Assembly (NCBI GenBank): GCA_947475685.1
Contig: CANJNC010000012.1
Location: 1-64,000 of the forward strand
DNA length: 64,000 nt
Direction: 5' to 3'
DNA from: Comamonadaceae bacterium
GTDB lineage: Bacteria; Pseudomonadota; Gammaproteobacteria; Burkholderiales; Burkholderiaceae_C
Shown: positions 4,358 to 20,045 of the stretch, piece by piece
How positions within the stretch are numbered: the stretch's first letter is position 1
Layout: the number at the start of each line of letters is the position of its first letter
Translations under genes and position numbers: made by a program
The notes under the pieces: generated by a model
Told to the model about the DNA's origin: nothing
Databases searched by the model: none
What the model saw: the letters and a program-made list of their open reading frames with translations, nothing else

Positions 4358-5368
4358 ATGAAATCAGGGAATACATCAAATAGTATTTACTATTTTTGTC
4401 TGTTTTTTTTATATTTAAGTTTATATCCATGCCTTGGGGAAACACAAACAAAGATACCTAGCCTTTCTGATTGGCCAAGTAAAACTGTCAAGATTGTGGT
4501 TCCTTTTGCGCCAGGCGGTGGAACTGATTATGTGGCTAGGCTTACCGCTCAAAAGCTTACTGAGCGGTTTGGGCAGAATTTCATTATTGAAAATAAACCT
4601 GGGGCGGGTGGAATAACTGGAACAGATTTAGTGGCCAAATCTAAACCCGATGGGTATAACTTGGTTATTGTAAGTGGTAGCCACACGATTAATCCAAACC
4701 TTTATAAAACGCTCCCCTACGACACAAGGCATGATTTTTTAGCAGTAAGCAATCTTGTGATTGGACCGGCTATTTTGGTTGTTAATTCAAATCTAAAGGT
4801 TAATAATCTAAAGGATTTGATTGCCTTAGCTAAATTAAAACCCGGTGAGCTATCTTTTGCATCATCAGGTAATGGTTCGCCACCACATTTGGGCGGAGAG
4901 TTGTTTAAGGCAATGGCTGGCATAGATTTGGTGCATATTCCTTATAAAGGGAATGGCCCAGCCTACAATGATTTAATCGGAGGTCAAATTACTTTAATGT
5001 TTCCTAATATAGCTACTGCGCTTCCTTTTGTTAAATCGGGGAAACTTAAAGCGTTGGCCGTCACAAGCAAATTGAGAAGCAAAATCGCTCCTGAGCTACC
5101 AACAATGACGGAAGCAGGTCTGGAAGGGTATGAGTTATCTTCTTGGTTTGGTATGCTTGCGCCATTAGAAACATCACCGTTAGTAATTCAACAGTTACAT
5201 CAAGAAATATTCAAAATTTATCAATCGCCTGATATCAGGGAAAAGTTACTCTCACAAGGTGTTGAGCCGCTCGCAAGCTCGCCAAATGAATTTACGGAAC
5301 AAATAAATTCAGAGATAACTTATTGGTCAAAAACTTTCAAAACCAAGAATCTCAAGATTGATCCTTAA
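4358..5368 (+). CDS. Bug-family solute receptor 2
   Basis: This 336-residue protein has an N-terminal hydrophobic segment (about residues 8-27), then WPSKTVKIVVPFAPGGGTD, VENKPGAGG-like ENKPGAGGITG and PDGYNLV, the usual Bug lobe-1 motifs, and the VPYKG-type IPYKGNGPA of the ligand pocket. It should be a periplasmic carboxylate-binding protein. It is divergent from the flavin hydroxylase operon (65-base gap) and its end overlaps the convergent amidohydrolase gene by 4 bases. No TctAB permease lies nearby. Confidence 0.93.
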   Translation: MKSGNTSNSIYYFCLFFLYLSLYPCLGETQTKIPSLSDWPSKTVKIVVPFAPGGGTDYVARLTAQKLTERFGQNFIIENKPGAGGITGTDLVAKSKPDGYNLVIVSGSHTINPNLYKTLPYDTRHDFLAVSNLVIGPAILVVNSNLKVNNLKDLIALAKLKPGELSFASSGNGSPPHLGGELFKAMAGIDLVHIPYKGNGPAYNDLIGGQITLMFPNIATALPFVKSGKLKALAVTSKLRSKIAPELPTMTEAGLEGYELSSWFGMLAPLETSPLVIQQLHQEIFKIYQSPDIREKLLSQGVEPLASSPNEFTEQINSEITYWSKTFKTKNLKIDP

Positions 5369-6411: not shown

Positions 6412-7455
6412 ATGACAATTAAGATTACTTTAACTGGTGACATTAATTTGATGAATGTGAAAGATGGATCTATTCCTTTTCGGTTGATTAAGGAGGAGTT
6501 AGATCAGTCAGATCTTGTATTTTCAAATCTAGAGTGCTGCCTTTATCAACCTGAATACAGTCACTCAGTAAATAACGAAGGTTTTTACGCTAATCCTAAG
6601 GTTGCAGTTGATGCTTTGAAAAATGGAAATATTTCAGTTGTAAGCTTGGCCAATAATGTAAATTATGGTCATGACGCGATATTAAACTCCATCAAAGAAC
6701 TTGATTCTGCCGGATTGATGCATACTGGTGCTGGCGAAACTAAAGCTCAAGCTATCAAACCTGTCATTATTGATCGTCAAGGCATACAAATTGGATTTTT
6801 AGCAAGAACTTCTGTTTATTGGAATACACATCACGAGGCACAAAAAGACTCATCCGGTGTTGCGGTCATTCGAGGTCATACGGCATATCAAGTACCCGCG
6901 TATAAAGTGAAGACTGAAATCCCGCCGTTCAATCGTCCTGGGATACCTCCAGTTGTTGTTACCTGGGCTGACAGGGTGTATTTGAAAGAATTAGTTGATC
7001 AAATTAAGGAGATCAAAAAATCATGTGATTTTGTTGTGATTTCTTGTCACTGGGGGCTTTGGAGTGAAGTATTAGAATATATGACTGAGATTGCACACGC
7101 TGTAATCGATGCAGGTGCTGATGTCGTTTTCGGGCATGGCCCTCATTTATCGCTTCCAGTTGAGATGTATGGTGGTAAGCCCATTTTTTATGGATTGGGA
7201 AGTTTTTCTTTCCATACTGGTCACAATGGACGGCAACATGGTGACTGGGTGGGTGAAATGCCCCAAATTAAAATAAGTAAAAGCAAAATAGAGGAGATTT
7301 CATTTAAATTGATCAGACACAATAATTTAAATGAAACATATTGCTGTGATTTAGACCAAGAGGCAGAAACAGTTGCTTATCTTATTGCCCAGAGTGCAGA
7401 AAAAAACTGTGAATTACGCGTTATAGATCAATCAATTGTTGTGACAATGATTTGA
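6412..7455 (+). CDS. CapA-family (PGA_cap) metallophosphatase-like protein
   Basis: The 347-residue protein matches the CapA/PgsA fold by GDINLM (residues 9-14), SNLE (38-41), SLANN (78-82), CHWG near 211 and GHGPH near 240. CapA proteins are linked to poly-gamma-glutamate capsules, but many family members in catabolic clusters have no known job. No signal peptide or transmembrane segment is visible, unlike true capsule proteins, so it is probably cytosolic. The usual LANNHxxDxG motif is altered here to LANNVNYG. It overlaps the next Bug gene by 4 bases, so the two should be translated together. Confidence 0.78.
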   Translation: MTIKITLTGDINLMNVKDGSIPFRLIKEELDQSDLVFSNLECCLYQPEYSHSVNNEGFYANPKVAVDALKNGNISVVSLANNVNYGHDAILNSIKELDSAGLMHTGAGETKAQAIKPVIIDRQGIQIGFLARTSVYWNTHHEAQKDSSGVAVIRGHTAYQVPAYKVKTEIPPFNRPGIPPVVVTWADRVYLKELVDQIKEIKKSCDFVVISCHWGLWSEVLEYMTEIAHAVIDAGADVVFGHGPHLSLPVEMYGGKPIFYGLGSFSFHTGHNGRQHGDWVGEMPQIKISKSKIEEISFKLIRHNNLNETYCCDLDQEAETVAYLIAQSAEKNCELRVIDQSIVVTMI

Positions 7456-8468
7456 ATTTGAAAGTAGGTACCAAATTGAATCAGTTCATCGCAAAGATCA
7501 TTTTTTCTATAGCAGTAGTAATTGCAAATAATGCTCTCACAGCCCAAACGCTTGACTCACCAGCAAGCATTAATTATCCTACGAAACCAATTCATTTAAT
7601 TGTCCCGTTCCCGCCCGGAGGTGGAAATGACTTTATTGCGAGATTTATTGCTCAGCGTCTATCTACTGGTTTGAAGCAATCTGTAATTGTGGAAAATAAA
7701 GCAGGAGCTGGGGGTTTATTGGGTGCTGAATTTGCAATCAAATCACCCCCTGACGGATACACCATCCTATTGATTTCTGCGTCATACACAGTAAATTCTG
7801 CGCTTTACCCTTTGAAATATGATCCTGAGGTAGATATTTCTGCCATTGGTCAAGTTTCCCAAGGAGCTTTTGTCTTGGTTGCAAATCCCAATTTGCCAGT
7901 AAATAGTTTAAGCGAGCTAATCAACTTGTCAAAATCGTCTTCTTCGATAATTAGCATTGCTTCTTCTGGGCATGGAAGCGTGTTGCACCTATCGGCAGAG
8001 TTATTGATGAGTAAGGCAGGCATAAAGCTTTTACATGTACCTTATAAAGGGGGTGGACCTGCTTTAAGCGATACGTTATCTGGGCAAACACAGTTATTTT
8101 TTAGTACACCTTCGATTGCTTTGCCATTTATAAAGGCTGGAAAATTAAAACCATTAGGAGTTACAACATTAAAAAGAACGCCAGTTTTGCCAGAAGTGCC
8201 AACGCTACAAGAGTCCGGGCTTAATGGATATGAAGTAAATGTTTGGCATGGTTTAATTGCACCCAAGGGGACTCCTTTGAGCATAGTCCAAAAAATTAAC
8301 CAAGAGCTAATCAAAGCATTTAACAGCAAAGAAGCAGTTGAGCTATTAGAAAAGGACGGCGTTTATCCTTTAGTTGGGTCACCACAGCAGTTTGATGCTT
8401 TAATCAAACGAGAAATTTCCAATTGGAAAGATTTGGTGAAGAAATCGAATATTAGTGCAGTGCCTTAG
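7452..8468 (+). CDS. Bug-family solute receptor 3
   Basis: This 338-residue product starts with TTG inside the end of the CapA-like gene (4-base TTGA overlap) and has an N-terminal hydrophobic signal (about residues 13-31, ending NALTAQ). The Bug motifs are YPTKPIHLIVPFPPGGGND, VENKAGAGG and PPDGYTI, then VPYKGGGPA in the pocket. The TTG start is favoured because it gives a full signal peptide and coupling to the upstream gene. It should be a periplasmic carboxylate receptor. Confidence 0.9.
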   Translation: MNLKVGTKLNQFIAKIIFSIAVVIANNALTAQTLDSPASINYPTKPIHLIVPFPPGGGNDFIARFIAQRLSTGLKQSVIVENKAGAGGLLGAEFAIKSPPDGYTILLISASYTVNSALYPLKYDPEVDISAIGQVSQGAFVLVANPNLPVNSLSELINLSKSSSSIISIASSGHGSVLHLSAELLMSKAGIKLLHVPYKGGGPALSDTLSGQTQLFFSTPSIALPFIKAGKLKPLGVTTLKRTPVLPEVPTLQESGLNGYEVNVWHGLIAPKGTPLSIVQKINQELIKAFNSKEAVELLEKDGVYPLVGSPQQFDALIKREISNWKDLVKKSNISAVP

Positions 8469-10608: not shown

Positions 10609-11919
10609 TTAATCTTTAGAAATCAATTTTTGCCATGTTTTATAAAAACCTTTATATATAGATTCATGATCCCAGTTCTTAGTAGTTATCTGTGGAGGTA
10701 TATCACCTAAAGGATAATCCTCACCTTCAAAACCGTTTAGTGTTTCACTAGCTCCGCGTGCAAAATGATTCCATTTTGCATTTTTAGCTTGACTGCCTGT
10801 ATGAACAGCCTCTAGAGCTGCCAAGTCATCAGATGTAGCCATACCAGATGTCAAATAGAAGTCTTCGAATTTACGAATTCGAGCAGATCGTGCTTCTTTA
10901 GCTTCCCCAACAGGTGCAATACACCGAACCGTTACGTCACACATATCAGGTGAGATCGGTCGCATGGTGCGTATCTGTGTTGATGGGTTATCCATGATGA
11001 AAACATTTGGAAATAAGTATAAATTTCGAGTTCGATGAAGCATCCAATGTGCTTGAGCCTTGGAGTAGGAATTTTCAATTCTTTCCTTTTCATCCCAAAT
11101 AGGATGAGCGGTTGGTTTAGATCGCTCTGTCCAAATACCCATATGTCCATTTCCAAAACCATAAGAGCCAGATAAAACTTGGCCAGTTATGCGCCCAGCT
11201 TCTGTTTCCTTTAAGCCATTTAAATTTAATTTAGCCTCTCTGTTAGAAATAGTGTTAGCGAAGACTTTGTGAACTGTTGATACGTGATATCCATCTACAC
11301 CATTTTCAGCTTGTAATTTCCAGTTTCCATAAAGCCTATATGTGGATTGACCGTTGATAATTTCAAGGCCCTTGGGAGATTGATCAACTAAGCAATCTAT
11401 CCAAGACTTAGTCCCACAAAGCCAGTCATCAAGTTCGGATACATCGCTATTTAGACTTGCAAAAATAAAGCCTCTGTAATTTTCAAGTCTAGATACTGGC
11501 GTAAGAGATGACTTATTTTTGATTTCTGCGTCTAAGTAAGCGCCTGATTCTTCATTTTTAATAACAAGGCATTTCCCATCCGAATTAAAAGTCCATCCAT
11601 GGAAGCGGCATCTGAAAGCTTTTGAATTACCAGATTCAAGTGGCACCAAAGTTGACCCTCTATGGGAACAGGCATTAAGAAAAGCATTGATTGACCCGTC
11701 ACTTTTTCTTAAAAGAAATATAGGCTGGCGTCCTATGTGAGTGCTAAAGTAATCCCCAGGATTTTTAATCTGAGATTCGTGAGCAATATAATTCCATGTT
11801 GATTCAAAAATATTTTTAATTTCTAAATCAAATATTTTCTGGTCAGAATAGACAGACCGGTCAACTAAAAATTTTGAATCTTTGTTGACAATCAAATTAT
11901 TAAATATTTCAGGACTCAT
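10609..11919 (-). CDS. Aromatic-ring-hydroxylating dioxygenase, alpha subunit (Rieske)
   Basis: The 436-residue protein carries a Rieske [2Fe-2S] motif, C84-S-H86 and C104-x-x-H107, and the mononuclear iron site ENGVDGYHVSTVH, with Asp209, His212 and His217. It fits benzoate/anthranilate-type dioxygenase large subunits, which add oxygen to an aromatic acid and need electrons from a reductase. The beta subunit follows directly and a Bug receptor gene lies 11 bases upstream. No ferredoxin or reductase gene is adjacent; the nearest candidates are the rubredoxin at 33.3 kb and fpr at 55.4 kb. The substrate is not determined. Confidence 0.93.
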   Translation of the reverse strand: MSPEIFNNLIVNKDSKFLVDRSVYSDQKIFDLEIKNIFESTWNYIAHESQIKNPGDYFSTHIGRQPIFLLRKSDGSINAFLNACSHRGSTLVPLESGNSKAFRCRFHGWTFNSDGKCLVIKNEESGAYLDAEIKNKSSLTPVSRLENYRGFIFASLNSDVSELDDWLCGTKSWIDCLVDQSPKGLEIINGQSTYRLYGNWKLQAENGVDGYHVSTVHKVFANTISNREAKLNLNGLKETEAGRITGQVLSGSYGFGNGHMGIWTERSKPTAHPIWDEKERIENSYSKAQAHWMLHRTRNLYLFPNVFIMDNPSTQIRTMRPISPDMCDVTVRCIAPVGEAKEARSARIRKFEDFYLTSGMATSDDLAALEAVHTGSQAKNAKWNHFARGASETLNGFEGEDYPLGDIPPQITTKNWDHESIYKGFYKTWQKLISKD

Positions 11920-11930
11920 TTTTACTCTAT

Positions 11931-12914
11931 TTAATTTAAGGAAATATTTCTTTTGTTAATTAACTCGCCCATTTTTTCATTAGTAGTTCGAAGGATTGAA
12001 GAAAATTCAGCTGGGGAATTCATCACAATTTCAGCACCTAAGTCTTTAAAGCGATTCATCACATCAGGGGAGTGAATTGCTTTGGAAAATTCGTCATGTA
12101 TTCTTTGTGTTATTTGAGAGGGCGTATTGGCGGGAGAGAATAAGCCAGCCCAAGTATAGGCATTAAAGTCGGAATAACCCAATTCTACAAAAGTTTTAAT
12201 ATTCGGTAAAAGTAAAATTCGTTTATCACTCGAGACAGCTAAAGCTTTTATTGTGTTAGCACGAATCTGAGCATTCGCAAGCGTTACGGAAATAAGCATG
12301 GCTTCTACTTGCCCTCCAATAAGGTCTGTTAAAGCTGGATTGCCACCTTTATAGGGCACGTGAATCATCTCAACATTGGAAATACTTTTAAAGTATTCCA
12401 TATATAAATGATTGCTAGTTCCCGTTCCAGGACTAGCATATGCAAACTTTCCTTGCTTTGATTGGACGTATTTAATTAGTTCGCTTAAATTGGTTGCTTG
12501 TACGTTGTTATTGACAACCAATGCTAGGGGTACTCTGGCTAAAAGAGAAATAGCCTGAATATCTTTAAAAATATCATAGGTCGAATTTTTATAAATATAC
12601 GGATTTACTGGAACACTATCAACACCTATCATCAATGTGTATCCATCGGGTAATGATTTAGCTATCTGGGCTTCTGCGAGCGTTCCACCTGCGCCACCTT
12701 TATTTTCAATTAATACAGGTTGTCCTAAGCTGTCTGTTAATTTAGGTTGTAGTGCACGAATTATTGTGTCTGCAAGACCGCCAGGCGCAAAGCCAACTAT
12801 GATTTTGATCGGTTTATCAGGATAGCTTTGTGCAAATAGATGAGTGTGAGTAAAAAAGAAAAAAAGAAAATAACTTAAAAAAGTAAACTTGTTTTTTGTA
12901 CTCAATTTATTCAC
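11931..12914 (-). CDS. Bug-family solute receptor 4
   Basis: The 327-residue product has a signal peptide (hydrophobic about residues 10-28, ending HLFAQ), then YPDKPIKIIVGFAPGGLAD, IENKGGAGG and PDGYTLM, and VPYKGGNPA in the pocket. It is the first gene of the leftward unit with the Rieske oxygenase subunits (11 bases to the alpha gene). This pairing suggests that it binds the aromatic acid used by the oxygenase. It is divergent from Bug 5. Confidence 0.92.
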   Translation of the reverse strand: MNKLSTKNKFTFLSYFLFFFFTHTHLFAQSYPDKPIKIIVGFAPGGLADTIIRALQPKLTDSLGQPVLIENKGGAGGTLAEAQIAKSLPDGYTLMIGVDSVPVNPYIYKNSTYDIFKDIQAISLLARVPLALVVNNNVQATNLSELIKYVQSKQGKFAYASPGTGTSNHLYMEYFKSISNVEMIHVPYKGGNPALTDLIGGQVEAMLISVTLANAQIRANTIKALAVSSDKRILLLPNIKTFVELGYSDFNAYTWAGLFSPANTPSQITQRIHDEFSKAIHSPDVMNRFKDLGAEIVMNSPAEFSSILRTTNEKMGELINKRNISLN

Positions 12915-13145: not shown

Positions 13146-14126
13146 GTGAAATTACTAAATCGACTCCAACACTTTACAGCTTTACTAGCGTGTATGATAT
13201 TATTTCAATCTTCAAATGCGCAGAATCTTTATCCCAATAAACCCATCAGATTGGTAGTCGACAGTGTGCCTGGTGGAACAACCGATTTGCTAGGTAGGAT
13301 TGCCGCTGATGGAATGGCTCAGCAATTTGGAGGGTCCATTGTTGTAGATAACAAGGCAGGTGCAACAGGGAATTTAGCCATGGACTTCGTAATGAAGTCA
13401 AATCCCGATGGTTATACATTATTGATTTGTGCCAATGGAAATTTATTAATTAAGCCATTTTTAGAAGGCGGCGCTAACTTTAATCCAATGGCGGATATTT
13501 TGCCAGTATTTAATACTGCCGAATTGCCGCATCTGTTAGTTGTTCCATCTTCTTTATCCATAAAGGATATAAATGGCTTTATATCTTATGCAAAAGCAAA
13601 TTCTGGTAAGATTTTTTATGGATCAGCTGGTATTGGAAGCCAGCCACACATTTCCGGGAGTTTGTTTAGCCGTGTCACAGATATTAAGTCTGAGCACATT
13701 CCCTATAAGGGCATGGGATCTGCGATGACAGATATATTGGCTGGAAGACTTCAGTTTATGTCTGCTGCGTACGGAACAGTTCGTCCGTATGTCAAATCCG
13801 GTGACCTTAAGCCATTGGCCGTGGGATCAAAAAGAAGGCTATCTGCTCTTCCAGAAGTACCCACTGCTACAGAATTAGGTATTGCTAGTTGGGAGATGAG
13901 TGCTTGGTTTGGAATTTTTGCACCCAAAGGAACTAGCAATGAAATACTTAAAATTTTGAATGAGAGATTACAAATCGTATTTGATGATCCCAAAATTCGA
14001 TCAAAAATGAATGAAATTGGCGCAGAGCCCCTTGGCGGGTCAATAGCAACATTTGCAGATCGTATTAAATCTGACTATAAAATTTATGGGCAAGTCATTA
14101 AAGACTCAGGGATAACTTTTAATTGA
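13146..14126 (+). CDS. Bug-family solute receptor 5
   Basis: This 326-residue product starts with GTG and has a signal peptide ending near residue 25 (FQSSNAQ). Bug motifs are YPNKPIRLVVDSVPGGTTD, VDNKAGATG and PDGYTLL, then IPYKGMGSA. The variant DSVPGG, where most members have PFPPGG or PYAPGG, hints at a different pocket. It is followed after 19 bases by the VOC protein gene and then Bug 6, likely one rightward operon. Confidence 0.9.
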   Translation: MKLLNRLQHFTALLACMILFQSSNAQNLYPNKPIRLVVDSVPGGTTDLLGRIAADGMAQQFGGSIVVDNKAGATGNLAMDFVMKSNPDGYTLLICANGNLLIKPFLEGGANFNPMADILPVFNTAELPHLLVVPSSLSIKDINGFISYAKANSGKIFYGSAGIGSQPHISGSLFSRVTDIKSEHIPYKGMGSAMTDILAGRLQFMSAAYGTVRPYVKSGDLKPLAVGSKRRLSALPEVPTATELGIASWEMSAWFGIFAPKGTSNEILKILNERLQIVFDDPKIRSKMNEIGAEPLGGSIATFADRIKSDYKIYGQVIKDSGITFN

Positions 14127-14693: not shown

Positions 14694-15659
14694 ATGTTGA
14701 ATTTTCGCTTATTGGTTTTATTAATTTATATTTTCTTTCAGCATGCCTTAGCTCAAACTTATCCTTCTAAACCAATTCGGCTTATCGTCCCTTATCCTCC
14801 TGGTGGCTCAGTTGATTTGGTAGGTAGAACCCTTGCAAGAAAAATGACTGAATTATTAGGCCAACCTGTTGTCATTGACAATAAGGGGGGTGCAGGAGCT
14901 AGGCTAGGAGTGGACTTGGCAGCGAAGTCAAATCCTGATGGCTATACATTGGTTGTGGCAACTGTAACTTCAATGAGCATGGCAATCAATATGTTTCCAA
15001 AGTTGCCTTATGATCCGATTAAATCATTTGCACCAATTAGCTTATTGACAAAGGCACCTGGAATAGTAACAGTCAATGAATCTCTTCAAGTCAAAAATTT
15101 AAAAGAATTCATCGAATTACTTAAAAATAAACCAGGTCAAATAAACTACTCTTCACTGGGAAATGGTTCAATTCAGCACTTTACAGGTGAATATTTTCAA
15201 TCCATGACGGGAACGCAAATGCTCCATGTGCCCTATCAAGGTGCTGGACCTGAGCTTATTGCTATTTTAGGTAATCAAGTTCAGGTTGGATTTGAAGTTT
15301 TATCTTCTTTCCAATTACAAAACTATCAAAGTGGGAAGCTTAAGGCTCTTGCTGTGGCTTCTAAGGAAAGGATAAGTTCACTCCCTAGCGTACCAACTTC
15401 AGCAGAGGCTGGATTGCCTGGATTTGAATTCAGTTCCTGGTTTAGCCTCATGGCTCCAGCAGGAACATCTCCGCAAATTATAAAAAAATTGAATGAAGAG
15501 ACAAGAAAAGCTTTATCAGATAAAGATGTGCTTGAAGTCATAGGTTTGCAAGGGCAGGATCCGTCAGGCAATTCACCTGAAGAAATGGCTTTATTTCTAG
15601 AAGCAGATATTGCAAAGTGGTCTAGAGTAATGAAGTCAACCAATTTTAAAATTGAATAA
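14694..15659 (+). CDS. Bug-family solute receptor 6
   Basis: This 321-residue protein has a short signal peptide (hydrophobic about residues 4-20, ending HALAQ), then YPSKPIRLIVPYPPGGSVD, IDNKGGAGA, PDGYTLV and VPYQGAGPE. It should be a periplasmic carboxylate-binding receptor. It is the last gene of the rightward Bug 5-VOC-Bug 6 unit and converges on the thiolase gene across a 15-base gap. Confidence 0.92.
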   Translation: MLNFRLLVLLIYIFFQHALAQTYPSKPIRLIVPYPPGGSVDLVGRTLARKMTELLGQPVVIDNKGGAGARLGVDLAAKSNPDGYTLVVATVTSMSMAINMFPKLPYDPIKSFAPISLLTKAPGIVTVNESLQVKNLKEFIELLKNKPGQINYSSLGNGSIQHFTGEYFQSMTGTQMLHVPYQGAGPELIAILGNQVQVGFEVLSSFQLQNYQSGKLKALAVASKERISSLPSVPTSAEAGLPGFEFSSWFSLMAPAGTSPQIIKKLNEETRKALSDKDVLEVIGLQGQDPSGNSPEEMALFLEADIAKWSRVMKSTNFKIE

Positions 15660-15674
15660 TGCGCTATGACTAAA

Positions 15675-16850
15675 CTAAAGTATTTCTTGAGTGCATAAAA
15701 TGGAAGTGGATTGACTTGAGGCAGAAGTTCCACCATTTCCGTTTATCAGAGCAGTTTTTGCATTTGCTACTTGTCGTAGAGAACATTCTCCCCTAAGCTG
15801 TCTTACAGCTTCAATCGTAGCAAAAGCACCATACATATTGGGGTGTACGCATGACAGGCCTCCCCCGTTTGTATTTACGGGTAGTTTTCCACCGGGGGCA
15901 ATAGCACCGTTATTGACAAACTCTCCGCCCTCTCCCTTTTTACAAAAACCCAGGTCCTCGAGTGCCAAAATTGTATTGATCGTAAAAGCATCATAAACTT
16001 GCACCACATCAATGTCTCTGTGACTTATTTTTGCCGCATTAAATGCCCGTTCTCCAGATTCTTTTGAAGGAGTAATGGTCAGGTCTTTCATATTGGTGAC
16101 AGAGCGATGCCATACAGCTGTTTCATTGGATAAGATAAAAACTGGTTTTTTCTTTAAATCTTTTGCATTATCTGAAAGGGTTATGATGTAAGCGCCAGCG
16201 CCATCGGTAACTTGACAGCAGTCATAAATTGTAAATGGATCACTAATCATTCGAGCATTAAGAATAGTATCTAGATCAAGGGGATCTCGAGAAAATGCCT
16301 CTGGGTTTAACTGAGCCCATTTTCTTGCTGCAAGTGCCACTTCAGCTAAGTGTTTTCTGGTCGTGCCGTATTCATACATATGACGTGCTGCAATAAGTGC
16401 ATACGATGAAGGGGGATCAAAGGGATGATAGGGGTCCTCAAAAATACTTGGATCAAGCGAACTTCTTGCGATAGAGCGCTCTTTTCTACCAAATTTCGAT
16501 GTTCTTTGATTGCTTCCATAGCAAACAAGAACAGCATTGCACTGACCGCTTAAAAGAGCTAGGGTTGCTGGCTTTTGGTGAGCGATAAAAGAGGAGCCCC
16601 CTATATTTGTGCCTTCAACAAAAGTTGGATGTATACCTAAATATTCACTGACATTTAATGGCCACATGGCTATGTTTAAATTGGCTGTACATAAACCGTC
16701 AATATCCTTTATTTTTAATCCGGCATCCTCGAGTGCTGCATGTGTGGCAAGTCCCAAAAGCTCAAGCTCGCTCATTCCAGGAGCTTCCCCGCAACCAGCG
16801 GTTCCAATGCCAACAATAGCGGTTTTACCGCGAGTATCAATATGATTCAT
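15675..16850 (-). CDS. SCP2/lipid-transfer-type thiolase-superfamily protein without the usual nucleophilic Cys
   Basis: The 391-residue protein has the thiolase fold: a TAIVGIGTAG start, DIDVVQVYDAFT near residue 280 and GGGLSCVHPNMYG near 333-345. Where thiolases have the catalytic Cys, this one reads NIGGSSF at residues 82-88. The C-terminal HPNMYG holds a His and a Tyr. Members that pair with a DUF35 protein include the steroid side-chain aldolase Ltp2, which uses a rebuilt active site for retro-aldol cleavage of acyl-CoAs. The ATG overlaps the stop of the DUF35 gene (ATGA), which supports an obligate complex. An aldolase or retro-Claisen role on an acyl-CoA is inferred. Confidence 0.85.
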   Translation of the reverse strand: MNHIDTRGKTAIVGIGTAGCGEAPGMSELELLGLATHAALEDAGLKIKDIDGLCTANLNIAMWPLNVSEYLGIHPTFVEGTNIGGSSFIAHQKPATLALLSGQCNAVLVCYGSNQRTSKFGRKERSIARSSLDPSIFEDPYHPFDPPSSYALIAARHMYEYGTTRKHLAEVALAARKWAQLNPEAFSRDPLDLDTILNARMISDPFTIYDCCQVTDGAGAYIITLSDNAKDLKKKPVFILSNETAVWHRSVTNMKDLTITPSKESGERAFNAAKISHRDIDVVQVYDAFTINTILALEDLGFCKKGEGGEFVNNGAIAPGGKLPVNTNGGGLSCVHPNMYGAFATIEAVRQLRGECSLRQVANAKTALINGNGGTSASSQSTSILCTQEIL

Positions 16851-17242
16851 TTTTTGAGCTTACTTGATCTAAAAACAACTTTTTTTATGCCATCAATATG
16901 TTCAATGCATAAATCAACCTTTTGTCCAATGTAGACATCGTTTGAATTCAATTCAATTACATTTCCCATTACTCGAACACCTTCCTCTAAATCAACAAGG
17001 CAAACGTTATAGTCTCCACCTGAATCGATTTTTCTACGCACAGTTGTGGTTGAATAAATCACACCTCGTCCACATATCTCTAGCCATTCAAGGTTTAATC
17101 CACTGCATGTGATGCAAAAGGATCTGGGAAAGAATTGGTTGGCTAAGCAGTCGCTACACTTTTGAATTAAAAATTGGCCCTTTTCAATGGCTTGCTTATG
17201 GTGTTCAGAGGGACCAAGATTTGTGGGAGTGTTTATGTTCAT
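16847..17242 (-). CDS. Zn-ribbon OB-fold (DUF35) protein, partner of the thiolase-like protein
   Basis: This 131-residue protein has a rubredoxin-like zinc finger formed by Cys29, Cys32, Cys43 and Cys46 with FFPR between, followed by an OB-fold domain (GRGVIYSTTTVRR onward). DUF35 proteins bind acyl-CoA and stabilise SCP2-type thiolases or dehydratases. It is the first gene of a two-gene leftward operon and overlaps the thiolase start by 4 bases. Confidence 0.9.
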   Translation of the reverse strand: MNINTPTNLGPSEHHKQAIEKGQFLIQKCSDCLANQFFPRSFCITCSGLNLEWLEICGRGVIYSTTTVRRKIDSGGDYNVCLVDLEEGVRVMGNVIELNSNDVYIGQKVDLCIEHIDGIKKVVFRSSKLKK

Positions 17243-17467: not shown

Positions 17468-17785
17468 ATGTGTATATTTAATCAAGCGAAACGATGGATA
17501 TTTTTGTTTTTGATTGGGGTTGTTTCAATCACTATAAATGCTCAGAATCTAACAGAGTCCATTCAAAGTTCTGAAACTGGGCGTGAGCTTGTATTAAATA
17601 AGTGTTCGCAATGTCATACAGATTCCATATGGAGGGATCAGCGTCAAGATGAGAGGGCATGGGAAGCTACGATGTATCGAATGATGGGAAGAGGGGCTAT
17701 ATGGACTCGGGATGAAATCAAATCCATGTCAGCTTTTCTCGGAGTCGATTTTGGTAATCAATCGACAAAGTTAAAAGTTAAGTAA
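17468..17785 (+). CDS. Periplasmic c-type cytochrome, single heme (105 aa)
   Basis: The product has a hydrophobic signal peptide (about residues 9-25, ending TINAQ) and one heme-binding motif C46-S-Q-C49-H50, followed by RQDERAWEATMYRMMGRG, where a Met could be the distal heme ligand. It should carry electrons in the periplasm. It begins a rightward operon and is followed after 29 bases by the Tat-exported TPP enzyme, which makes it a candidate electron acceptor for that enzyme. It is not similar by eye to the second cytochrome at 19749. Confidence 0.85.
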   Translation: MCIFNQAKRWIFLFLIGVVSITINAQNLTESIQSSETGRELVLNKCSQCHTDSIWRDQRQDERAWEATMYRMMGRGAIWTRDEIKSMSAFLGVDFGNQSTKLKVK

Positions 17786-17814
17786 TAAATAGGTATATTT
17801 CAGGAGTTGTCCAA

Positions 17815-19746
17815 ATGCGTGATGCCGTAACTGGTTATTTGACCAAAACTATTTCAAGGCGTGGTTTTTTAGATAATTTAAAACTAGCTGGAATGACAGT
17901 CACAGCAGCTGAAGGTGTATTGTCTTCTTTGAACTCCGCGGCTCAAAACACGCCTTCTTTAAGTAATAACAACTCAACTGAGGTCCCACCAGTTAAAACA
18001 TTTCAAGGCTCGGGGGGGGCTTGCTTTGCTGAGCAACTTATGGCTTGCGGTGTTAAGTATGTTTTTGGTAATTCTGCGAGCGAAGACGCTCAGTTTTATG
18101 ATGCGTTGGTTGACAGACCTCAACTCAATTATATTTTAACGCCTCATGAGGGACCGGGTGCGGCTATGGCCGCTGGATATATCAAGGCTTCCCAGGAGCC
18201 AGCCATAGTGATGCAGGCTGGTGCAGTTGGTCTTATGAATGCAATGGGGCAGGTTTTTAATGCGTATAAAGAACAAACTCCATTGGTGATTTACTCCTAT
18301 CGAACTGATCAATCTAGACGAGCAGGTAGAGATGGTTTTGAAGAAATTGCAAACCAAGAACAGGTATTACAACCATTGACCAAATATTCATGGATGGCTC
18401 GAGGCCCATCCATGATTGCTGAAACCACTAGACATGCATTTAAATCTGCATGGACCCCACCCCATGGTCCTGCATATTTGACCTGGCATTCAGACCATAC
18501 AGATGAGAAAACCAGGACGGAAATTATTCAACAAAGTCATTTCGATACTCGAATGCGAGTAAGACCAAATCCTGTAGAAATTGAGCGAGCAGCAAGAATG
18601 TTGTTGGATGCCAAGATGCCTGTTTTGATAGTAGGAGATGAAATATATAAGGCAAAAGCTGTTGCGAAAGTTGTTAAATTGGCTGAAATGTTAGGGATGC
18701 CAGTGACTCAAATGCGTCAGATGTGGGTTAATTTTCCCGAGGCACACCCACTATGGGTTGGCAATGCTCCAGCTGGGACATTGTCTAGTATTACGTGGCC
18801 TAAAAATTATGACTTGGCTATCAATATCGGTAATAAGATGCAGCACAACGGAGTTCAACCAATTGTTGCGCGAAATGTAAAATTCATCGACATGAGAATT
18901 GATTACCAAAACATGGGTAAGGTAATGTCTACCGACGTACCTTTGGTTGGTGATGTGGCATTGGGATTGGATGATCTCATTGCCGCATTGGATCAACTGA
19001 TGAATGCAAGAAGTAAGGAAATAGCTACTCAACGCACTATCGAAGTCAAAAAGTTCACCGATCGAGCAAGACAAATATTTACAGGTATTGTTAATAATCC
19101 TGAGTGGAATAACGCTCCTTTGATCGCCGATAGAGTTACTTGGGAGGTTGCACAATTCGCTGATAAAGATGCAATTATTGTTCATGAGGCTGGCTCTGTA
19201 GCTATGCATTCATTCAATTTCAATCCTGTTGGAGGAAGAGAGCTATTTTTCTACTATGGAGGGCATTTGGGTTCTGGAGTAGGAACTTCTGCCGGTGTTA
19301 AATTGGCTCGTCCTCATCAACAAGTCATTTGTTTGGTCGGAGATGGTTCGTTTTTATTTGGTCCTCATGCTTTGTGGAACATGGCCAGACTAGAGCTTCC
19401 AGTCATTACAATTGTCTACAACAATCACGCCTACGGGGGTCCTCATACGCGTGCCATAGCAAATGTACCTTCGGGACGAATGGTTGAGACAGGCCAGTTT
19501 GTTGCAAGTTATTTGGGTAATCCTGATATGAATATGGCGCAAATCGCACAAGGTTTTGGTGTCAAGGCAGAAGTAGTAAGTAATTCATTGGAATTAAAGC
19601 AAGCTCTTTCCCGAGCTAAGCTTTCTACCATGGATGGGAAACCATATTTGATTGATGTTCAAGTTGTTCGCCGTGGAGTTGGATGGACTGAACAACCTTG
19701 GGTACCTAATATTAAGGGAAGTAAACAAAAAGCGAAAAAAACCTAA
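17815..19746 (+). CDS. Tat-exported thiamine-diphosphate-dependent enzyme (acetolactate synthase/benzoylformate decarboxylase-like)
   Basis: The 643-residue protein begins with a twin-arginine signal (ISRRGFL at residues 13-19, then a weakly hydrophobic stretch). The mature part has three TPP-enzyme domains: an N-terminal Pyr domain with the activating Glu112 in HEGPGAAMAAGY, a central domain, and a C-terminal PP domain with GDGSF at 509-513 and VYNNHAYG around 534-541, the two ends of the TPP/Mg motif. Cytosolic relatives decarboxylate or ligate 2-oxo acids. Tat export implies cofactor loading before secretion and work in the periplasm. Cytochrome genes lie 29 bases before and 2 bases after, which suggests oxidation of a 2-oxo acid with electrons passed to heme. 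That reaction is inferred. Confidence 0.85.
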   Translation: MRDAVTGYLTKTISRRGFLDNLKLAGMTVTAAEGVLSSLNSAAQNTPSLSNNNSTEVPPVKTFQGSGGACFAEQLMACGVKYVFGNSASEDAQFYDALVDRPQLNYILTPHEGPGAAMAAGYIKASQEPAIVMQAGAVGLMNAMGQVFNAYKEQTPLVIYSYRTDQSRRAGRDGFEEIANQEQVLQPLTKYSWMARGPSMIAETTRHAFKSAWTPPHGPAYLTWHSDHTDEKTRTEIIQQSHFDTRMRVRPNPVEIERAARMLLDAKMPVLIVGDEIYKAKAVAKVVKLAEMLGMPVTQMRQMWVNFPEAHPLWVGNAPAGTLSSITWPKNYDLAINIGNKMQHNGVQPIVARNVKFIDMRIDYQNMGKVMSTDVPLVGDVALGLDDLIAALDQLMNARSKEIATQRTIEVKKFTDRARQIFTGIVNNPEWNNAPLIADRVTWEVAQFADKDAIIVHEAGSVAMHSFNFNPVGGRELFFYYGGHLGSGVGTSAGVKLARPHQQVICLVGDGSFLFGPHALWNMARLELPVITIVYNNHAYGGPHTRAIANVPSGRMVETGQFVASYLGNPDMNMAQIAQGFGVKAEVVSNSLELKQALSRAKLSTMDGKPYLIDVQVVRRGVGWTEQPWVPNIKGSKQKAKKT

Positions 19747-19748
19747 AC

Positions 19749-20045
19749 GTGATTCAATTTTTATTTTTATTATTTTTTGTTAGTATTTCAGACGTGGTGC
19801 TTGCTGATGACGCTGAAATTGGGCGTGAAATATATCATGAAAACTGTAGCTCATGTCATGGAAAAGAAATGCTCAAGCCAGGCCTTGCTTTTGATCTAAA
19901 AAAATTTCCAAAAGATGATTTTCAACGTTTTCAAAGCGCCGTACTTAACGGCAAAGGGAGTGGTATGCCGGCTTGGAAATTAAAGCTCTCTGCTGAAGAT
20001 GTGAAGTTAATTTGGATCTATGTCAAAACCGAATCAGATCATTAG
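19749..20045 (+). CDS. Periplasmic c-type cytochrome, single heme (98 aa)
   Basis: GTG start 2 bases after the stop of the TPP enzyme gene, so translation is probably coupled. The protein has a signal peptide (about residues 3-19, ending VVLAD) and a class I cytochrome c pattern: C33-S-S-C36-H37, then GSGMPAW near residue 76 with the distal Met, and LIWIYVKTES at the end. It should be a soluble electron carrier for the TPP enzyme or a link to a terminal oxidase. Confidence 0.88.
   Translation: MIQFLFLLFFVSISDVVLADDAEIGREIYHENCSSCHGKEMLKPGLAFDLKKFPKDDFQRFQSAVLNGKGSGMPAWKLKLSAEDVKLIWIYVKTESDH

Follow-up and report, generated by a model that had tools for sequence, protein, structure and literature searches.

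The cyt1-TPP-A-cyt2 locus

Three plus-strand genes lie nearly end to end in the window, by which we mean the whole 64,000-nucleotide stretch analyzed here (contig CANJNC010000012.1 of a Comamonadaceae bacterium). The first, cyt1 (17468..17785; 105 amino acids), encodes a mono-heme c-type cytochrome with an N-terminal hydrophobic signal. The second, TPP-A (17815..19746; 643 amino acids), encodes a thiamine diphosphate (ThDP) enzyme of the twin-arginine translocation (Tat) type that resembles benzoylformate decarboxylase (BFD), as judged from its open reading frame (ORF), Pfam domains, and sequence and fold matches. The third, cyt2 (19749..20045; 98 amino acids, GTG start), encodes another mono-heme c-type cytochrome. 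The gaps between them measure 29 and 2 bases, and each cytochrome contains a single CXXCH motif, CSQCH at 17603-17617 in cyt1 and CSSCH at 19845-19859 in cyt2. Pfam assigns the cyt2 product to Cytochrome_CBB3 and gives no match for that of cyt1, which resembles the NCBIfam SorB model NF052246 weakly (E value of 7e-4; 19.5 bits, below the cut-off of 93). The original prediction, made from the letters and their ORFs, had proposed a Tat-exported ThDP enzyme flanked by two cytochromes, and its account of the gene unit is borne out in the ORFs, the coordinates, both gaps, the SRRGFL segment, Glu112 within HEGPG, and the single-heme cytochromes.

All three ThDP enzyme domains of TPP-A exceed their Pfam cut-offs: the N-terminal domain, which holds Glu112 (TPP_enzyme_N, PF02776; 18013..18357, residues 67-181), the central domain, which holds a VGDE loop (TPP_enzyme_M, PF00205; 18580..18978, residues 256-388), and the ThDP-binding C-terminal domain, which holds GDG at residues 509-511 and NN at 536-537 (TPP_enzyme_C, PF02775; 19192..19659, residues 460-615), each on the plus strand. 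They place the protein in the ThDP superfamily of acetolactate synthase, pyruvate oxidase, and BFD, and the distance from GDG to NN is the usual one for ThDP binding. Its nearest relatives in both sequence and fold are BFDs. A comparison of the predicted structure with chain B of PDB entry 6qsi gave 26% identity over 515 aligned residues, using a good model (pLDDT of 84) obtained with a more diverse alignment after an earlier poor one (pLDDT of 61). Cyclohexane-1,2-dione hydrolase (by sequence and fold) and benzaldehyde lyase (by sequence) rank lower. TPP-A falls below the BFD family cut-off in NCBIfam (NF005485, 240 bits versus 493), its best-scoring model is NF006203, “thiamine pyrophosphate-requiring protein” (243 bits versus a cut-off of 456), and among the best 25 of 63 matches, no NCBIfam model passes its cut-off.

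The first codons of TPP-A encode a segment that resembles a twin-arginine signal (17815..17949, with an estimated 3' limit), with SRRGFL at residues 14-19 and the RR codons at 17857-17862. The RR pair is present in all 22 intact TPP-A N termini and in three further proteins that are 34 to 36% identical to TPP-A. By eye, the segment ends in A-x-A-Q in many orthologs, a plausible cleavage site. The genome also contains a tatC gene and cytochrome c assembly genes. The stretch 17815-17994 additionally gives a weak match to NCBIfam NF038009, a “twin-arginine translocation system-associated protein” (E value of 0.016, and 0.002 in the locus L024; far below the cut-off).

Distribution and conservation of the gene unit

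We searched for TPP-A in genome_contigs (one genome per species; 84,980 species) with a peptide-pattern scan, which detects close relatives only and returned 20 loci at 78 to 94% identity, all in metagenome-assembled genomes. Their titles name Burkholderiales or Comamonadaceae (16 loci), Rhizobiales (2), Betaproteobacteria (1), and Sterolibacterium (1). By tblastn, cyt1 lies upstream in all 19 loci that include DNA ahead of TPP-A (L028 begins within the gene), and cyt2 lies downstream in all 19 with room for it (L023 ends 63 bases past the gene). Two homologs at 64 to 66% identity (L056 and L057) and a broken copy (L059) also retain cyt1. Adding the window brings the tally for cyt1 to 23 of 23 loci whose upstream DNA is available; for cyt2, it is 20 of 20 at an identity of at least 78% and 0 of 3 at 64 to 66%. 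The broken copy (genome G1101; 5400-6900 of L059) consists of separated match pieces with the middle partly gone, and its SRRDFL segment is still present beside cyt1.

The surroundings of these loci differ. L009, L011, L019, and L027 (most fully) have much of the window's neighborhood in common, and L012, L014, L015, L020, L021, L023, and L024 share no further neighbor cluster with it. Only the cytochromes recur across all TPP-A contexts, as judged from a rough, greedy choice of ORFs that overlooked real genes in GC-rich loci, such as TPP-A itself in L022. Because the three genes stay linked (apart from cyt2 at 64 to 66% identity), and the RR pair persists, in orthologs with differing surroundings, we rejected chance adjacency of cyt1, TPP-A, and cyt2.

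TPP-A is rare. With the own genome included in every count, it was found in 7 of 61 near relatives (E value of 1e-80) and, in larger samples where scoring was confined to a few top first-look candidates from each genome, in 3 of 369 genomes of the class (1e-70), 4 of 399 of the order (1e-60), and the own genome alone among 398 of the phylum (1e-60). A plasmid search with TPP-A as the query gave no match at 1e-60. The three TPP-A-like genes at 34 to 36% identity are more varied in their neighbors. L058 has a di-heme cytochrome gene 2 bases downstream, which matches cyt1 at 34% and resembles SorB somewhat better than cyt1 does, though also below the curated cut-off. The nearest CXXCH ORF to the gene in L039 lies 2.1 kb away on the other strand and is probably not a gene, and L038 has no CXXCH ORF in 9.9 kb. 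Beside the TPP-A-like gene in L038 is an ORF resembling a flavin amine oxidase (8-1549), with a twin-arginine-like TRREML.

A second putatively exported ThDP enzyme and the probable origin of the pairing

The same genome encodes a second Tat-type ThDP enzyme, TPP-B (L037 7694-9733 or slightly longer), which carries ARRQFL, is about 25% identical to TPP-A, and has downstream of it the cytochrome c gene cyt3 (L037 9764-10126; CWQCH). A further, Tat-less ThDP enzyme gene comes directly after this pair on the same contig, C20 (10333-12006 of L037). At an identity of at least 75%, TPP-B accompanies TPP-A in 6 of the 7 near relatives that have the latter and occurs in none of the 54 others, two of which have Tat-less relatives of TPP-B at 31 to 33% (Fisher P of 1.3e-7 for the 61 genomes and 3.0e-6 for the 37 genus members). 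A TPP-B-family enzyme (at least 47% identity) was also found in 18 of 20 named TPP-A genomes, which partly overlap the near-relative set; 14 have the close type and 4 the distant type only, and the two without a family member are those of L018 and L025. Against this, the background is low in two samples that were likewise scored on a few top candidates from each genome: the own genome was the single match among 349 genomes of the phylum (1e-110), and a Caballeronia query found 6 of 300 genomes of the order (1e-100), with G865, G897, and G1021 outside the TPP-A matches.

In L022, the two systems form one cluster of five genes on one strand, in the order cyt1, TPP-A, cyt2, TPP-B, and cyt3. Neither this cluster nor the TPP-B/cyt3 system figured in the original prediction. 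TPP-B-type genes also occur in cultured bacteria. Plasmid p3 of Caballeronia zhejiangensis carries a TPP-B-type Tat ThDP enzyme gene followed by a di-heme cytochrome gene (WP_244808613 and WP_244808614), labeled merely “thiamine pyrophosphate-binding protein” beside “c-type cytochrome,” and in Novosphingobium sp. KACC 22771 such a gene is followed by two CXXCH ORFs. Aligned TPP-B-family sequences often depart from the GDG motif at its first position: 14 of 18 rows have Ser or Pro in place of Gly (SDGD, PDGD).

Tat signal and heme partner go together across the wider family. All 30 TPP-B-family loci with an intact N terminus have the RR pair, and 31 of 33 have a cyt3-family ORF within 1 kb, four of them on the opposite strand. 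The 33 loci do not include L086, an N-terminal fragment at a contig end, or two matches in G1164 (51% and 49%). Among 16 Tat-less relatives (28 to 37% identical), neither the RR pair nor a cyt3-family ORF within 1 kb occurs (0 of 16 each; Fisher P of 4.6e-11 for the cytochrome contrast, kinship ignored). The 16 are those with a retrieved locus, and 6 of 18 plasmid records were opened (H1, H2, H3, H6, H7, and H8). The cyt3 profile was built from 11 cyt3 proteins, mostly of the counted loci or copies of them, and thus shows presence rather than independent detection.

A quick tree of 54 sequences, constructed without the signal region and omitting 6 fragments and 8 near-copies, separates TPP-A and its distant kin from TPP-B and its kin, with Tat-less enzymes joined to each; its long branches make it provisional. 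Forcing all Tat-type rows into one clade, as a single origin would require, was rejected by the AU test (p-AU of 7.5e-5, and 3.5e-4 without two long-branch rows). Export and heme partners therefore probably came together twice, in separately evolved enzyme lines.

Proposed function, alternatives, and significance

The window offers some hints about the substrate. A gene on the minus strand (10609..11919) appears to encode a ring-hydroxylating oxygenase alpha subunit of the Rieske type, a family judged by eye rather than by profile scan, and its relatives lie near TPP-A in L009, L011, L019, and L027. A Pfam-confirmed pair of thiolase-like and ChsH2-like OB-fold genes (15675-17242, minus strand) adjoins cyt1; the pair recurs in the same four loci, and the thiolase also in L016. 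By eye, six genes for TctC-type periplasmic binding proteins lie within about 14 kb (1671-2639, 4358-5368, 7452-8468, 11931-12914, 13146-14126, and 14694-15659), which suggests specialized uptake of carboxylic acids. A Rieske oxygenase alpha subunit, a FAA hydrolase, and an amidohydrolase are encoded near the five-gene cluster of L022, and Rieske oxygenase subunits about 7 kb upstream of the Caballeronia TPP-B-type gene. These oxygenase neighbors point to aromatic catabolism in those loci, leaving the substrate unnamed; some other TPP-A loci, such as L012 and L015 (sulfatases), show no hint of aromatic catabolism beside the gene. An aroyl-formate-like substrate, as the original prediction suggested, would fit the fold and some of the ring-hydroxylating oxygenase neighbors.

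We read the operon as encoding a periplasmic ThDP-dependent 2-oxo-acid:cytochrome c oxidoreductase, at a probability of about one-half, in which exported TPP-A probably carries out the oxidative decarboxylation of an aromatic 2-oxo acid. TPP-A would fold in the cytoplasm, binding ThDP and Mg there, and then be exported by Tat. Once in the periplasm, it would decarboxylate a 2-oxo acid that is most likely aromatic, forming the Breslow (enamine) intermediate. Rather than take up a proton and leave as an aldehyde, the enamine would give up two electrons, one at a time, to the dedicated cytochromes with no FAD in between; the acyl-ThDP would be hydrolyzed to a carboxylic acid, and the electrons would pass onward to the respiratory chain. 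TPP-B and cyt3 would belong to the same pathway. A bolder version, which we regard as tentative and rather doubtful, holds that flavin-free periplasmic ThDP oxidoreductases passing electrons from the Breslow intermediate directly to c-heme arose two or more times, each time from another cytosolic ThDP enzyme, and are paired, in the order cyt1-TPP-A-cyt2-TPP-B-cyt3, in one periplasmic pathway of aromatic-acid oxidation.

Several observations weigh against the oxidoreductase. BFD, whose fold is nearest, catalyzes a non-oxidative reaction, and the cytochromes could serve a different enzyme. No cyt2 match was found in L056, L057, or L059, no CXXCH ORF lies within 2 kb of two of the three TPP-A-like genes at 34 to 36% identity, and no related cytochrome lies closer than 1 kb in L081 and L084 of the TPP-B family. 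The N terminus of TPP-A in the window matches neither TIGR01409 nor PF10518, and charged residues interrupt its hydrophobic stretch. The co-occurrence and neighbor-count statistics ignore the kinship of the genomes. Aldehyde dehydrogenase genes occur in the surrounding DNA for 6 of 17 Tat-less genes, in one case at a distance of 1.6 kb, and also near 3 of the 26 Tat-type loci listed (L024, L037, and L093), which lends little weight to the idea that the cytochromes replace that enzyme. The expectation that homologs would combine RR signals with adjacent CXXCH proteins thus holds for cyt1 and the RR pair and fails for cyt2 at 64 to 66% identity and for the cytochromes in two of the three genes at 34 to 36% identity. 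Likewise, the predicted partnership of an exported ThDP enzyme with cytochromes is strengthened by the conserved order, the invariant RR pair, the co-occurring TPP-B/cyt3, and the Tat-less kin without cytochromes, and is weakened by the absence of cyt2 or of cytochromes in some distant homologs.

TPP-A could alternatively be a periplasmic but non-oxidative decarboxylase or carboligase, with the cytochromes accepting electrons from another exported dehydrogenase that oxidizes the aldehyde. The proximity to BFDs agrees with this, as do the aldehyde dehydrogenase genes near some Tat-less relatives and, in L057, a protein that has a molybdopterin domain and an RRDF segment and is encoded about 3.5 kb before TPP-A. 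We consider it unlikely, however, as the cytochromes alone recur in all contexts of the rough neighbor comparison, and the position of the active-site residue His70 of BFD is Ala, or once Ser, in 13 TPP-A alignment rows. The same position is His in 18 TPP-B-family rows, and the catalytic Glu and the Ser26 position of BFD are retained in TPP-A. A cytochrome c-linked TPP-A might instead oxidize, through the same acyl-ThDP chemistry, something other than a 2-oxo acid: an alpha-hydroxyketone, a 1,2-diketone, or an aldehyde. It would then resemble cyclohexane-1,2-dione hydrolase to some extent. The matches to that enzyme and to benzaldehyde lyase speak for such a substrate, but they rank below the BFDs, and we judge it quite improbable.

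The two remaining alternatives deny export or add a flavin. If the N-terminal extension were not an export signal, TPP-A would be cytoplasmic and the cytochromes unrelated neighbors; the failed Tat-model match and the charged residues in the window's own N terminus would be accounted for. Yet the RR pair is invariant, the order is conserved with cytochromes that bear N-terminal hydrophobic signals, and the TPP-B family runs in parallel. Moreover, among ten N termini scanned from both families, TIGR01409 (cut-off of 16.7 bits) recognizes the 64% homolog L056 at 25.5 bits and L075 at 22.6, and PF10518 recognizes none. A cytoplasmic TPP-A is therefore very unlikely in our view. We give still less credence to a pyruvate-oxidase-like flavoenzyme whose bound FAD relays electrons to the cytochromes: the FAD-contacting loop of the central domain reads TGGG in the acetolactate synthase of the same genome but VGDE in TPP-A.

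No system is known to us that combines the features of the proposed oxidoreductase. BFDs, such as the Pseudomonas putida enzyme and the P. fluorescens 4-hydroxybenzoylformate decarboxylase (PDB 6qsi), have the three-domain ThDP fold of TPP-A, but they are non-oxidative, and TPP-A does not retain their His70 position. Pyruvate oxidase, known in Escherichia coli as PoxB or “pyruvate dehydrogenase [cytochrome],” resembles it in the proposed ThDP-dependent oxidation of a 2-oxo acid that feeds the respiratory chain. PoxB, however, works in the cytoplasm, associated with the membrane, and uses FAD to reduce quinone; for TPP-A, the signal is of the Tat type, the adjacent genes encode c-type cytochromes, and the central-domain loop is different. 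SorAB sulfite dehydrogenase, one of the Tat-exported dehydrogenases that have a small cytochrome c subunit, likewise pairs an exported cofactor enzyme with an adjacent mono-heme cytochrome, but its catalytic partner is a molybdenum enzyme. Cyclohexane-1,2-dione hydrolase, of the same ThDP superfamily, uses FAD and NAD, and we know of no heme partner for it. To our knowledge, no characterized ThDP enzyme of this superfamily resides in the bacterial periplasm or has dedicated c-type cytochrome acceptors. A literature search, judged by titles and abstract openings, found no account of a ThDP enzyme that is exported and has cytochrome partners, and the characterized P. stutzeri BFD is reported to be intracellular and to lack a signal peptide (PMC10384211).

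TPP-A itself belongs to a known superfamily; the novelty lies in the combination, which probably evolved more than once. The arrangement of the locus in related genomes and in a second enzyme line suggests an undescribed oxidation of small acids outside the cytoplasm. If correct, ThDP oxidation chemistry would move beyond the cytoplasm, and these bacteria could capture energy from 2-oxo acids without importing them. It would also provide a naturally occurring case of heme encountering a ThDP enamine or radical, and suggest a testable function for genes that are labeled just “thiamine pyrophosphate-binding protein” beside “c-type cytochrome.”
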